Source: Brevundimonas sp. MYb52 (GTDB lineage: Bacteria; Pseudomonadota; Alphaproteobacteria; Caulobacterales; Caulobacteraceae). From it: DNA of 64,000 nt. The stretch covers positions 186,001 to 250,000 of the forward strand of contig NZ_PCPB01000003.1 in the NCBI RefSeq assembly GCF_002979535.1, given 5' to 3'. The notes beneath the pieces were generated by a model, which worked only from the letters and a program-made list of their open reading frames with translations, did no database searches and was not told the origin of the DNA. The position numbers were made by a program, and so were the translations under genes. Position 1 is the stretch's first letter; every line of letters begins with the position of its first letter. Positions 5,899-55,940 of this stretch are shown piece by piece.

Positions 5899-6046
5899 TT
5901 CTCCCTCCCCTTCATGGGGAGGGTGGCTGACGCGAAGCGGCAGACGGGTGGGGACGCTTCGGCGGTTCACGCGCACCCTAATATTTGCCTCGTCCTCCCC
6001 ACCCGGTCGCTGCGCGACCACCCTCCCCATGAAGGGGAGGGAGAAA
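5899..6046. repeat. Family A inverted-repeat element, copy A1
   Basis: Two perfect 26-bp inverted arms (5901-5926 and 6018-6043), each itself a hairpin built on CTCCCTCCCC / GGGGAGGGTGG, enclose about 90 bases of variable sequence. The arms are identical to those of copy A3. The element occupies the gap between the amidase gene and rnpB. Confidence 0.85.
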
Positions 6047-14540: not shown

Positions 14541-16061
14541 ATGATCCCGGTTCCCGGCTTCGAGGGGCGTCGCATCGCGGTCTTCGGCCTGGGCCGTTCC
14601 GGTATTACGGCGGCGCGCGCGCTTCAGGCCGGCGGCGCCGTCCCCGTCCTGTGGGACGACGGCGTCTCGGGCCGGATGCAGGCGGAGGCCGAGGGTTTTG
14701 TCGTCGAGGACCTGACCCGCGCCGACTGGTCGGGCTTCGCCGCCCTGGTCCTGTCGCCGGGCGCGCCCCTGACCCATCCCAAGCCGCACTGGACCGTCGA
14801 GCGCGCCCATCAGGCAGGCGTGCCGGTCATCGGCGACGTCGAGCTGTTCGCCCGCGCTCTGGACGTCCTCCCGCAAGGCCAACGCCCCCGCGTCGTCGCC
14901 ATCACCGGCACCAACGGCAAGTCCACCACCACGGCTCTGATCGGCTGGGTGCTGAAGTCGGCGGGCCTGAGCGTCCACATCGGCGGCAATATCGGCATCG
15001 GCGTCCTGGCCCTGCCGGCCCCGACGCCCGACGCCGTCTATGTCATCGAGGTCTCGTCCTACCAACTGGACCTGACCACGACCTTCGCGCCCGACGTCGC
15101 CATCCTGACCAACATCAGCCCCGACCACCTGGACCGCCACGGCGGCATGGAAGGCTATGTCGCCGCCAAGCGCCGGATATTCCCGGCGCAGGGGGCGGAG
15201 GCGCTGGCCCTGGTCGGCGTGGATGAAGCCTGGGGGCAGAGGATCGCGGCGGACCTGCGCACTCAGGGGTGCCGTGTCGAGACGGTCGCCAGTCTTCCTT
15301 CTCCCCTTGTGGGAGAAGGTGGCAGGCGGAGCCTGACGGATGAGGGGTCTCTCACCCTCTCCGAAAGCACACCTGAACCTTCTGTAGGCGAAACCCCTCA
15401 TCCGAGCCCTTCGGGCCCACCTTCTCCCACAAGGGGAGAAGGGTATGAGGCGACGGCTGGCGTCTTGCTGGCCGACGGCGATGTGCTGGCCGACCTCTCC
15501 GCCGCCCGCTCGCTGCCCGGCCGTCACAACGCCCAGAACGCCGCCTTCACCTATGCCGCCGCCCGCGCGCTCGGCGTATCGCACGAGGCGGCGGTCGAGG
15601 GTTTGCTGACCTTCCCCGGTCTGGCGCACCGGATGGAGGCCGTGGGCCGTCTCGGCGGCGTCCGCTTCATCAACGATTCCAAGGGCACCAACGCCGACGC
15701 CGCGCGTCAGGCCCTGGCTTCCTATCCCTCCGTCTTCTGGATCGCGGGCGGCAAGGCCAAGGAGGGCGGCATCGAAGCTCTGCGCGACCTCTTCCCCCAC
15801 GTCGCCAAGGCCTATCTGATCGGCGAGGCTGCCGACGCCTTCTCCGTCACCCTGGCTGACACCCCCCACGTGGTGGCGCATACGATGGAGCGCGCCGTCG
15901 AGCTGGCCGCCGCCGACGCAGCCGCGGCCGGGGGCGAGCAGGTCGTCCTGCTGTCGCCCGCCTGCGCCAGTTTCGACCAGTTCCCTGATTTCGAGGTGCG
16001 GGGCGAAGCCTTCCGCGCCGCCGTGCTGGCGCTGGGCGCCAAGCCTGAGCCCGCCGCATGA
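14541..16061 (+). CDS. murD: UDP-MurNAc-L-alanine:D-glutamate ligase MurD with an in-frame repeat insertion
   Basis: Adds D-glutamate to UDP-MurNAc-L-Ala. Recognisable by FGLGRSGITAARAL, LVLSPGAPLTHP, the ATP loop GTNGKSTTT at about 123-131, VIEVSSYQLDLT, LTNISPDHLDRHGGM, the PGRHNAQN turn, FINDSKGTNADAARQAL, WIAGGKAKEGG and LLSPACASFDQF. At 506 residues it is about 50 longer than I expect for the family. The excess is a low-complexity stretch (about residues 253-301, SLPSPLVGEGG through SPTRGEGYE) encoded by a complete family B repeat. The frame stays open, and the insert lies between the central domain and the NAQN region, probably in a surface loop. ftsW overlaps by ATGA. Confidence 0.95.
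   Translation: MIPVPGFEGRRIAVFGLGRSGITAARALQAGGAVPVLWDDGVSGRMQAEAEGFVVEDLTRADWSGFAALVLSPGAPLTHPKPHWTVERAHQAGVPVIGDVELFARALDVLPQGQRPRVVAITGTNGKSTTTALIGWVLKSAGLSVHIGGNIGIGVLALPAPTPDAVYVIEVSSYQLDLTTTFAPDVAILTNISPDHLDRHGGMEGYVAAKRRIFPAQGAEALALVGVDEAWGQRIAADLRTQGCRVETVASLPSPLVGEGGRRSLTDEGSLTLSESTPEPSVGETPHPSPSGPPSPTRGEGYEATAGVLLADGDVLADLSAARSLPGRHNAQNAAFTYAAARALGVSHEAAVEGLLTFPGLAHRMEAVGRLGGVRFINDSKGTNADAARQALASYPSVFWIAGGKAKEGGIEALRDLFPHVAKAYLIGEAADAFSVTLADTPHVVAHTMERAVELAAADAAAAGGEQVVLLSPACASFDQFPDFEVRGEAFRAAVLALGAKPEPAA
15297..15442. repeat. Family B inverted-repeat element, copy B1, inside murD
   Basis: Perfect 26-bp inverted arms: 15297-15322 (begins CCTTCTCCCCTTGTGGGAG) and 15417-15442. Each arm is itself a hairpin. 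The interior carries GCAGGCGGAGCCTGACGGAT, which recurs inverted in copy B2. The element is read through as coding sequence without a stop. Confidence 0.9.
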
Positions 16062-18552: not shown

Positions 18553-19683
18553 ATGCCTCAGTTCGTCGTCAATCTGACCAACAACGTCTTCGCCCTGTGG
18601 AATCAGTTCCACTGGCTGCCCGAATGGGCGGTGATCACCATCATCACCGCCGTCTTCGTCTTCATCGGCTGGGCGGCCAATCAGGTCGTCTTCGCTCTGT
18701 TGAAGCTGGCCGTGCGCAACCGCGACGTCTTCTGGAAGGGCATGCTGGGGCGCGCCCGACTCAAGGTGCGCATCGCGGTGATGATCATCGCCCTGGCCCT
18801 GGCGGTCACGGTCTCGCCGCTGGACCCGGAACCCTCGCTCTTCATCCGGCGCACCCTGTTGTTCGGCTTCATCCTGGTCTGCGGCTGGATGCTGGCGGGC
18901 GCGGTGGACATGGGGGCGGTTGTCCATCTGAAGAAGTTCAACATGGACACGGAGGATAACCTCCTGGCCCGCAAGCACGTCACCCAGACGCGCATCCTGC
19001 AGCGTGTGGCGGCCATCCTGATCGGCCTGATCACGCTCGGCTTGGCGCTGCTGACCATTCCGGGCGTGCGCCAGTGGGGGCTGTCGCTGCTGGCCTCGGC
19101 GGGGGTGGTGGGCATCGTCGCCGGTCTGGCGCTGCAACCCTTCCTGACCAACCTGCTGGCCGGCATCCAGATCGCCACGGCCCAGCCCATCCGACTGGAC
19201 GACGCCGTCATCGTCGAGGGCGAGTGGGGGCGGGTTGAGGAGATCACCTCGACCTATGTCGTGGTCAAGCTTTGGGACTGGCGGCGGATGATCCTGCCCC
19301 TGACCTATTTCATCCAGAAGCCGTTCCAGAACTGGACCCGCGACGACAGCCGCCTGATCGGCGTCGCCTTCCTCTATGTGGACTACGAGGCGCCGATCGA
19401 CCGCCTGCGGGTCAAGTTGGAGTCCATCGCCCACGCCTCGCCCCTGTGGGACGGCGACGTGGTGTCCCTGCAGGTCACCGACATTACCGCCCGCGTGGCC
19501 CAGGTCCGCTGCCTGACCAGCGCCAGGAACGCCTCGGTCGCCTTCGACCTGCGCTGCGAGGTGCGTGAGAAGATGCTGGCCTTCATGCGGGATGAATGCC
19601 CCCAAGCCCTGCCGAGGGACCGGGTGGACCTGGATCGAAACAGTCGCGACATTCTCCCTCCCCTTCATGGGGAGGGTGGGTGA
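18553..19683 (+). CDS. MscS-family mechanosensitive ion channel protein
   Basis: 376-residue membrane protein. Four or five hydrophobic helices (ITIITAVFVFIGWAANQVVF, VRIAVMIIALALAVTV, TLLFGFILVCGWMLAGAV, VAAILIGLITLGLALLTI) precede the pore helix and beta domain typical of MscS: SLLASAGVVGIVAGLALQPF, LLAGIQIATAQPIRLDDAVI, GEWGRVEEITSTYVVVKLWD, RRMILPLTYFIQKPFQNWTR. It probably opens under membrane tension during osmotic downshift. The last residues (ILPPLHGEGG) and the stop codon are encoded by the left arm of repeat A3, so the native C-terminus was probably replaced. Confidence 0.88.
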   Translation: MPQFVVNLTNNVFALWNQFHWLPEWAVITIITAVFVFIGWAANQVVFALLKLAVRNRDVFWKGMLGRARLKVRIAVMIIALALAVTVSPLDPEPSLFIRRTLLFGFILVCGWMLAGAVDMGAVVHLKKFNMDTEDNLLARKHVTQTRILQRVAAILIGLITLGLALLTIPGVRQWGLSLLASAGVVGIVAGLALQPFLTNLLAGIQIATAQPIRLDDAVIVEGEWGRVEEITSTYVVVKLWDWRRMILPLTYFIQKPFQNWTRDDSRLIGVAFLYVDYEAPIDRLRVKLESIAHASPLWDGDVVSLQVTDITARVAQVRCLTSARNASVAFDLRCEVREKMLAFMRDECPQALPRDRVDLDRNSRDILPPLHGEGG

Positions 19684-19801
19684 GGCCGATAGGCCGAAGC
19701 CGGGTGGGGGCGGCGCGGCAAATCAAGCGCCGCACCTGTATTGCCACGCCCTCCCCACCCGGTCGCTTCGCGACCACCCTCCCCATGAAGGGGAGGGAGA
19801 A
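19652..19801. repeat. Family A element, copy A3, overlapping the end of mscS
   Basis: Arms 19654-19679 and 19774-19799 form a perfect 26-bp inverted repeat, identical in sequence to the arms of A1. The left arm contributes coding sequence to the mechanosensitive channel gene. The right arm ends just before the stop of the reverse-strand gene at 19805. Confidence 0.9.
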
Positions 19802-21197: not shown

Positions 21198-21354
21198 CTT
21201 TCCTCCCCACTTCGTGGGGGGGGGGGACCGCGTAGCGGTGGAGGGGACGACGGTACGTTTGAAAATCAGAGAATCTAGGCTGACGGCAGCGCCGCCCCCT
21301 CCGTCACGGTCGCTGCGCGCCCGCGCCACCTCCCCATGAAATGGGGAGGAAAGG
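21198..21354. repeat. Family A element, copy A4, with a G11 run
   Basis: Left hairpin CTTTCCTCCCCACTTCGTGG followed by 11 consecutive G (21216-21226). The right arm CCACCTCCCCATGAAATGGG is followed by GAGGAAAGG. It fills the gap between the convergent glycosyltransferase and smc genes and may act as a two-way terminator. Confidence 0.8.
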
Positions 21355-33071: not shown

Positions 33072-33093
33072 GATCCCGACAAAAGGCGCGTTT

Positions 33094-33240
33094 CCCTCTC
33101 CCCTTGTGGGAGAAGGTGGCCGAGCGGAGCGAGGTCGGATGCGGGGTTGCGCGACGCTAAAAGCAGCCCGTAGCCAGACCTCGGCGAGACCACTCATCCG
33201 TCAGGCTCCGCCTGCCACCTTCTCCCGCAAGGGGAGAAGG
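33094..33240. repeat. Family B element, copy B2, before murC
   Basis: Left arm CCCTCTCCCCTTGTGGGAG-AAGGTGG (from 33094) and right arm CCACCTTCTCCCGCAAGGGG-AGAAGG (to 33240), nearly identical to the B1 arms. The interior carries ATCCGTCAGGCTCCGCCTGC, which is B1 interior sequence in the opposite orientation. Its last bases run into the murC ribosome-binding region. Confidence 0.88.
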
Positions 33241-33250
33241 AAAGAAGGAT

Positions 33251-55805: not shown

Positions 55806-55940
55806 TCTTTCCTCCCCACTCTGTGGGGAGGGGGACCACGAAGTGGTGGAGGGGGCGGCACAGTCTTCAACTGTCGAGACGCCCCCTCCGTCACGTCGCT
55901 ATCGCGACGCGCCACCTCCCCATGGAATGGGGAGGAAAGA
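55806..55940. repeat. Family A element, copy A5
   Basis: Left hairpin TTTCCTCCCCACTCTGTGGG with ACCACGAAGTGGTGG beside it. Right part GCCACCTCCCCATGGAATGG followed by GGAGGAAAG. It fills the space between the convergent peptidase and LysR genes. The right hairpin equals the solo copy behind ccrM. Confidence 0.85.

Follow-up and report, generated by a model that had tools for sequence, protein, structure and literature searches.

Most known palindromic repeats that encode part of a protein come from Rickettsia and Wolbachia, and are there easily explained by genome reduction and weak selection. According to passages of PMC10969869 and PMC2229807, the Rickettsia palindromic elements (RPE) are 105-150 bp long, belong to several families, and are dispersed both between genes and in frame within protein genes; Wolbachia palindromic elements figure there in the title of a cited work. 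A passage of PMC2229807 states that a Rickettsia guanylate kinase with such an insert is still active, with changed affinity, a case that provides a precedent for tolerance of an in-frame insert. Passages of PMC10969869 and PMC2229807 also describe the CIR elements of Caulobacter as palindromic, GANTC-bearing and strictly intergenic, part of PMC2229807 describes the MITEs ERIC/RU-1, RU-2 and RU-3 as non-autonomous inverted-repeat elements able to fuse with host open reading frames, and the title of PMC3733652 names the GTAG or CGTC tags of REPs.

Brevundimonas sp. MYb52, a member of the Caulobacterales, carries a palindromic element, here designated family A, in frame within the essential gene murD (Table 1). 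The genus, which we take not to be obligately intracellular, belongs to a different order from Rickettsia, and the likeness of family A to RPE rests on anatomy and placement, not on sequence. Among the papers listed by literature searches, no report of coding palindromes in Brevundimonas was seen.

Table 1. The murD gene and the parts of its family A element, numbered by position in the window (the whole stretch of DNA analysed, 64,000 nucleotides).
Feature	Position	Strand	Evidence
murD, UDP-N-acetylmuramoylalanine--D-glutamate ligase, 506 aa	14541..16061	+	Open reading frame; Pfam Mur_ligase_M and Mur_ligase_C; PDB MurD matches
Family A palindromic element, REP-doublet-like, codons 253-301	15297..15442	+	Inverted arms; 33 places in genome; fold z -9
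Left 26-nt arm; first 23 nt form their own hairpin, CCTTCTCCC-N5-GGGAGAAGG	15297..15322	+	Inverted arms; copy sequences
Left inner hairpin, stem CAGGC/GCCTG, varies among copies	15323..15335	+	Fold; copy comparison
Conserved CGGATGAGGGGT box, pairs with 15393-15404	15337..15348	+	Copy sequences; fold
Variable middle of element	15349..15392	+	Copy sequences
Conserved ACCCCTCATCCG box, inverse of 15337-15348	15393..15404	+	Copy sequences; fold
Right inner hairpin, GCCC-TTC-GGGC	15406..15416	+	Fold; copy comparison
Right 26-nt arm; last 23 nt form a hairpin	15417..15442	+	Inverted arms

The terminal inverted repeats of the murD copy are exact reverse complements at 26 of 26 positions, spaced 94 nt apart, just as the preliminary description of a 146-bp element with perfect 26-bp arms had it. 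The longest exact inverted arm within 300 bp measures 28 nt in the real window and 17 nt in 20 first-order Markov simulations, so that arms of this kind lie beyond chance. Between the left and the right outer hairpin, the latter being downstream, the offset is 123 nt (41 codons); in direct orientation the two agree at 18 of 23 bases, the difference being confined to the 5-nt loop. As RNA, the whole 146 nt is predicted to fold into a single long branched hairpin at -94 kcal/mol, against -54.7 +/- 4.4 in 200 shuffles (z = -9). A known RNA family was considered and rejected: the sole Rfam match between 14500 and 16100 at E <= 1 is a sub-threshold one to lin-4, at 15971-16048, outside the element.

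A BLAST search with the element against its own genome gave 77 matches on both strands, which merge by eye into 33 distinct places. Copies of at least 100 bp (lengths 122-169 bp) occupy 22 of these places, and three exact 23-bp solo hairpins occur in the genome. In being dispersed palindromes, with 22 copies of such length and a fold of this strength, family A resembles RPE. Matches at E <= 0.001 are present in 119 of 121 genomes of the genus, and this dispersal supports the palindromic repeat element of the preliminary description. Family A also has matches in 70 of 200 genomes of the order; splitting these 200 by hand from the match table assigns 15 of the 70 to the same genus (one same-genus genome has no match) and gives 55 of 184 genomes for the other genera, partial matches included. 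The dispersed copies share the arms of the murD copy, and all 22 long copies, that of murD included, have an outer-hairpin end and a CGGATGAGGGGT box at both ends. Of their 44 inner segments, 31 form, within the limits of the script, a stem without mismatch that is 4 bp or longer, and 13 different stems are found; pairing thus appears to be kept though the sequence changes. A further family, B, has matches in 109 of 121 genus genomes; its interior is partly conserved genus-wide, and listed copies at other loci are up to 85% identical over the whole element. Family C was recognised by eye through its B-like ends.

Other palindromes lie in the window. The one at 33091-33243 belongs to family A, and those at 5899-6045, 21198-21353 and 55806-55940 apparently belong to other families. 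A palindrome at 19652-19801, with 28-nt perfect arms, overlaps the 3' end of an open reading frame (18553-19683) whose product terminates in PPLHGEGG, encoded by the left arm. Elsewhere, four species (L230-L233) apparently carry one orthologous A element at another locus, with arms kept and a slightly different middle.

In anatomy, family A is like REPINs or REP doublets: two inverted hairpin modules surround a variable middle, copies are many, and solo modules exist. REPs, however, are extragenic by name, whereas the murD copy is intragenic, and no GTAG or CGTC tag was seen by eye at the outer ends of the copies in the genome. A search of the 35-contig assembly with the profile PF01797 for a RAYT (Y1 transposase) gave no match, and a control search with this profile found matches in 5 of 14 genomes, Caulobacter vibrioides included. 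A RAYT-driven REPIN was therefore set aside for this genome, RAYT being unsupported as the current mobiliser. The CIR of Caulobacter and relatives (about 110 bp) is a palindromic repeat like family A, but the murD copy is intragenic and GANTC occurs in 0 of the 22 long copies, on which ground CcrM/CIR identity was rejected. Like the MITEs, family A is presumably non-autonomous, has 26-nt terminal inverted repeats and stands in frame with a host open reading frame. No clear target-site duplication was seen when occupied, solo and empty alleles of murD and of the Lhr-type helicase gene described below were compared by eye, the empty ones being too divergent or perhaps eroded hairpins.

The murD open reading frame runs without a stop across the whole element, which makes up residues 253-301. 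In a Pfam scan of MurD the Mur_ligase_M match stops shortly upstream of the insert and the Mur_ligase_C match lies downstream; in phmmer, E. coli MurD aligns with residues 6-231 and 323-500, flanking the insert, which falls by sequence within an unaligned stretch (query 231-323 against E. coli 217-262). The MurD motifs on both sides thus stand in one frame, as first reported. The estimate in the preliminary description of about 49 added residues agrees with the coordinates but not with the net gain, which is 41 residues when measured against L157, a relative whose murD holds a solo hairpin there. MurD is about 465 aa long in L157 and about 492 aa in L006, which carries a family-B variant.

All but one of the 121 genus genomes gave a MurD match, and in 118 the sequence bounded by the GGMEGY and GRHN motifs was read (within L001-L030 and L140-L229; L167, L200 and L209 from tblastn output only), two being left out, L161 for a contig end and L189 for a frameshift at the site on a draft contig. 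By classes assigned by eye, the occupants are an A doublet in 15 genomes, an A solo 23-bp hairpin in 12 (nine of them exact matches to the hairpin pattern), an eroded A-like sequence in seven (of which L222, with a single mismatch, could be counted as solo), family B in 17, family C in two and none of these in 65. The longest exact inverted arms measure 9-29 nt in the A doublets (at least 13 nt in 14 of 15), 13-34 nt in B, 8 nt in C and at most 11 nt in the 62 measured element-free rows. Named records of B. diminuta, B. naejangsanensis, B. bullata, B. aurantiaca, B. lenta and others fall into the same classes; they partly duplicate the 118 genomes and were kept out of the count. The comparison of near relatives that had been suggested therefore finds differing occupancy, with a stretch between the flanking motifs of 72-137 aa across the genus, and the element-free class (72-124 aa, about MurD residues 230-322) is hypervariable too. 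Arm-less relatives with a similar sequence of the same length had been named as counter-evidence to an insertion; arm-less versions of like length do exist in other species (113-117 aa, for example L024, L026 and L029), which bears out this counter-evidence in part, but their sequence is dissimilar by eye.

Throughout the genus, the murD site is thus a hot spot at which several families are found, a feature unseen in the preliminary description, as were the solo-hairpin alleles. In this the case differs from RPE: from species to species the same codon position of an essential gene holds one or another of several families, and a solo-hairpin state exists. One arm-less version, NRAALDFSRQPLNGFISGFGF, recurs: L204 and L219 both have it, and L200, which sits on another branch, has a similar one. 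This recurrence suggests allele exchange or diversifying pressure. In L189, the genome with murD frameshifted at the variable site, a family-B-like peptide is encoded between mraY and murD, possibly through an assembly fault.

On a FastTree phylogeny of MraY, FtsW and MurD minus residues 215-322, with four states distinguished (A doublet, B, C and all others), the occupant changes at least 28 times; such changes belong to a gene tree and are not equated with insertions. Tree neighbours with different occupants include L007 (B) and L008 (C), L017 (B) and L156 (A), and L011 (A) and L016 (B), and L001 (A) is placed near L006 (B) and L010 (C); outside the site, neighbours remain 80-99% identical in 100-nt bins. 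Between doublet and solo alleles the length difference is exactly 123 nt in the pairs L001/L157, L002/L159, L002/L160 and L013/L177, which represent three different doublets. This equals the spacing of the outer hairpins and fits an in-frame deletion between them. The direction from doublet to solo is the one we infer, though the change could also have run in reverse.

Across the order, MurD is found at threshold in 223 of 249 genomes, 22 of them same-genus by hand count. Among the matches listed, 11 run through the insert, all from the same genus, and no listed match from another genus (201 genomes) does so; nearly all of the other-genus matches listed consist of two separate pieces, and those of G184, G186 and G331 of one piece only. 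At eight other-genus loci (L263 and L265-L271; L264 is same-genus) the region is uniform, about 92 aa long and element-free. Although family A has matches in 55 of 184 genomes of other genera, no occupied site was thus seen there among the matches listed and the loci read; the presence of the family alone is not sufficient for occupation, and the loop became free to vary within the genus.

Within the MYb52 genome, nine of the 21 other long copies have spanning stop-to-stop frames of at least 277 aa and were scanned with Pfam (the longest frames of the remaining 12 are 195 aa or less). None of the nine has domains on both sides, and one has a beta-lactamase domain, downstream only. Insertion into genes therefore looks rare per copy, the murD copy being the only one, of ten frames scanned in this genome, with Pfam domains on both sides. 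In relatives, the loci collected were top matches or long open frames (A peptide in 41 genomes, B peptide in 41), a non-random sample, in which 22 frames have at least 50 aa on each side of the element. Twenty of these were scanned with Pfam (L231:2970-3500 and L288:1260-2063 were left out), yielding four Lhr-type helicases (L234, L272, L281, L283), one RsmB-type methyltransferase (L276), one frame with a dipeptidyl-peptidase domain on one side only (L231) and 14 frames without a Pfam match. In L234 and L281 the A element is in frame with the DEAD domain before it and Helicase_C after it, L272 and L283 being cut on one side, and in L276 it is in frame between the ferredoxin-like and methyltransferase domains. 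As with RPE, family A thus occurs in frame inside conserved genes with domains intact on both sides (murD, the Lhr-type helicase, the RsmB-type methyltransferase). The two additional genes found by checking related genomes strengthen the likeness to the Rickettsia elements first drawn from murD, in that family A works alike.

The Lhr-type helicase is present in 114 of 121 genus genomes and, by hand count of the listing, aligns in one piece across the site in at least 44. The best 30 loci, a set biased toward occupied sites, hold by eye family A in 17, other low-complexity inserts in 12 (about three kinds, some with 15-30 nt arms) and an ambiguous sequence in one. Twenty further genomes, hand-picked and nearly all for splitting at the site, have a solo hairpin in two (L325, L329), a doublet in one (L327) and a short linker in 17; in L327 the sequence preceding the A element is tandemly duplicated (DDP..IADWLSP twice). 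The helicase match of the window genome splits at the site. RsmB, likewise present in 114 of 121 genus genomes, has an A doublet in seven of the best 20 loci (one eroded) and a plain linker in 13; the RsmB locus of the window genome (L355) has no A element.

The preliminary description suggested, as one possibility, that selection keeps at least one frame of such elements free of stops, and this part of it fails. Of the 132 frames in the 22 long copies 40 are open, against 59 +/- 4.6 in dinucleotide shuffles, with at least 40 in 300 of 300 shuffles; real copies having fewer open frames than shuffles, selection for open frames was rejected. Copies with at least one open frame number 21 of 22 (shuffled mean 21.4), and copy lengths modulo 3 are unremarkable (6, 10 and 6 for 0, 1 and 2). 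Unlike RPE, then, family A shows no excess of open frames, and a better explanation for in-frame survival is that selection acts on the host gene once an element has inserted. In murD the element encodes PSPLxGEGG...PSPxRGEG, and by eye most of the Lhr copies do so too; the right arm in RsmB is read in another frame.

We consider it quite probable that these sequences are non-autonomous mobile palindromes tolerated in a permissive MurD loop, RPE-like in their working and REP-doublet-like in their anatomy. Family A consists of two inverted REP-like modules, in each of which a CGGATGAGGGGT box accompanies an outer hairpin and a second, variable one further in, and one copy would have integrated, presumably by transposition, into a permissive loop in the later part of the MurD central domain. 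In an essential gene, only insertions that keep the frame and lack stops would be expected to survive. Turnover is probably mixed, combining repeated insertion, deletion between look-alike outer hairpins, which would leave a 23-bp in-frame scar, and interspecies allele exchange by recombination, and what the element encodes is most likely an unstructured passenger peptide, tolerated and with no function of its own. Counting against this explanation are the lack of a PF01797 match in the genome, the failure of the alleles compared to show a target-site duplication, the apparent rarity of insertion into genes per copy, and the arms of the C copies, only 8 nt exact. Many occupants may also have been inherited or exchanged and not inserted independently, to judge from like interiors (L016/L017, L006/L007/L012). 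It is possible, though we lean somewhat against it, that the murD loop received each family in one or a few insertions only, and that the patchwork arose by short-tract exchange among Brevundimonas species. Recognisably like interiors on different branches (L011/L156 and L008/L010 in addition to those just named) make recombination likely, but they are no proof of shared descent, the interior of family B being partly conserved genus-wide (up to 85% identity). Across 19 pairs, 100-nt bins outside the region are 80-99% identical, once or twice 100% (L156 is nearly without left flank in this comparison), and identity drops at the site and the adjoining 75-105 nt. That the dip lies for the most part within the site and its surrounding 75-100 nt or so favours exchange of short tracts; a dip alone, however, is no recombination tract, since the two solo alleles L175 and L177 diverge alike (76-79%), about as much as is seen around different families, which indicates that this patch of murD evolves fast.

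Retention of the element for a function, whether of the hairpin in murD mRNA or DNA or of the peptide, as in tuning of murD/ftsW expression or as an interaction surface, appears distinctly unlikely. The predicted RNA hairpin is very strong, the inner stems in the MYb52 genome vary yet are paired in 31 of 44, and the arms in 18 like-insert pairs are 91-100% identical (29 of 36 arms at least 96%), above both the interiors (51-96%) and the adjoining murD sequence (58-94%), all of which would suit a function; in L027 and L142, for example, the arms agree at 66/66 positions, the interior at 48/68 and the flanks at 98/152 and 62/89. Dispersed copies keep the same arms, however, so that arm conservation looks like a property of the family, whether it stems from selection acting on the element itself, from gene conversion among its copies or from a recent arrival; moreover, the site is without any such element in 65 of 118 genus genomes, and the eight other-genus loci are uniform and element-free. 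That the mature protein lacks the encoded segment, because translation bypasses the hairpin, the RNA is processed or the peptide is excised, is very improbable: a strong in-frame hairpin could in principle cause stalling or be skipped, and L189 is frameshifted at the site, though on a draft contig, but the reading frame is open through the site in all 118 rows used. We give scarcely any credence to the idea that nothing was inserted and that a low-complexity host linker expanded locally until it resembled repeats. The region is indeed hypervariable even without palindromes (72-124 aa), but 22 of 22 long copies, that of murD included, have the outer-hairpin end and box at both ends, and family B at the murD site matches dispersed copies elsewhere.

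Mobile palindromes in a tolerant loop could also be more selective about where they land. The central-domain loop of MurD, the linker that follows the DEAD domain of the helicase and the RsmB linker might be shared, targeted landing pads, entered preferentially and in frame by unrelated families, a reading we think unlikely. Integration machinery would then perhaps recognise a resident hairpin or scar, and elements would replace one another at a fixed codon; if this were true, the sites would be targeted, beyond mere tolerance.

MurD in Brevundimonas has an unusually tolerant loop in which palindromic DNA repeatedly ends up. In-frame palindromes occur here in an essential gene of a genus taken not to be obligately intracellular, with several families at one site. 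The natural occupied, solo and empty alleles of relatives make insertion, tolerance, deletion to a scar and the effect on the enzyme directly comparable in culturable bacteria.
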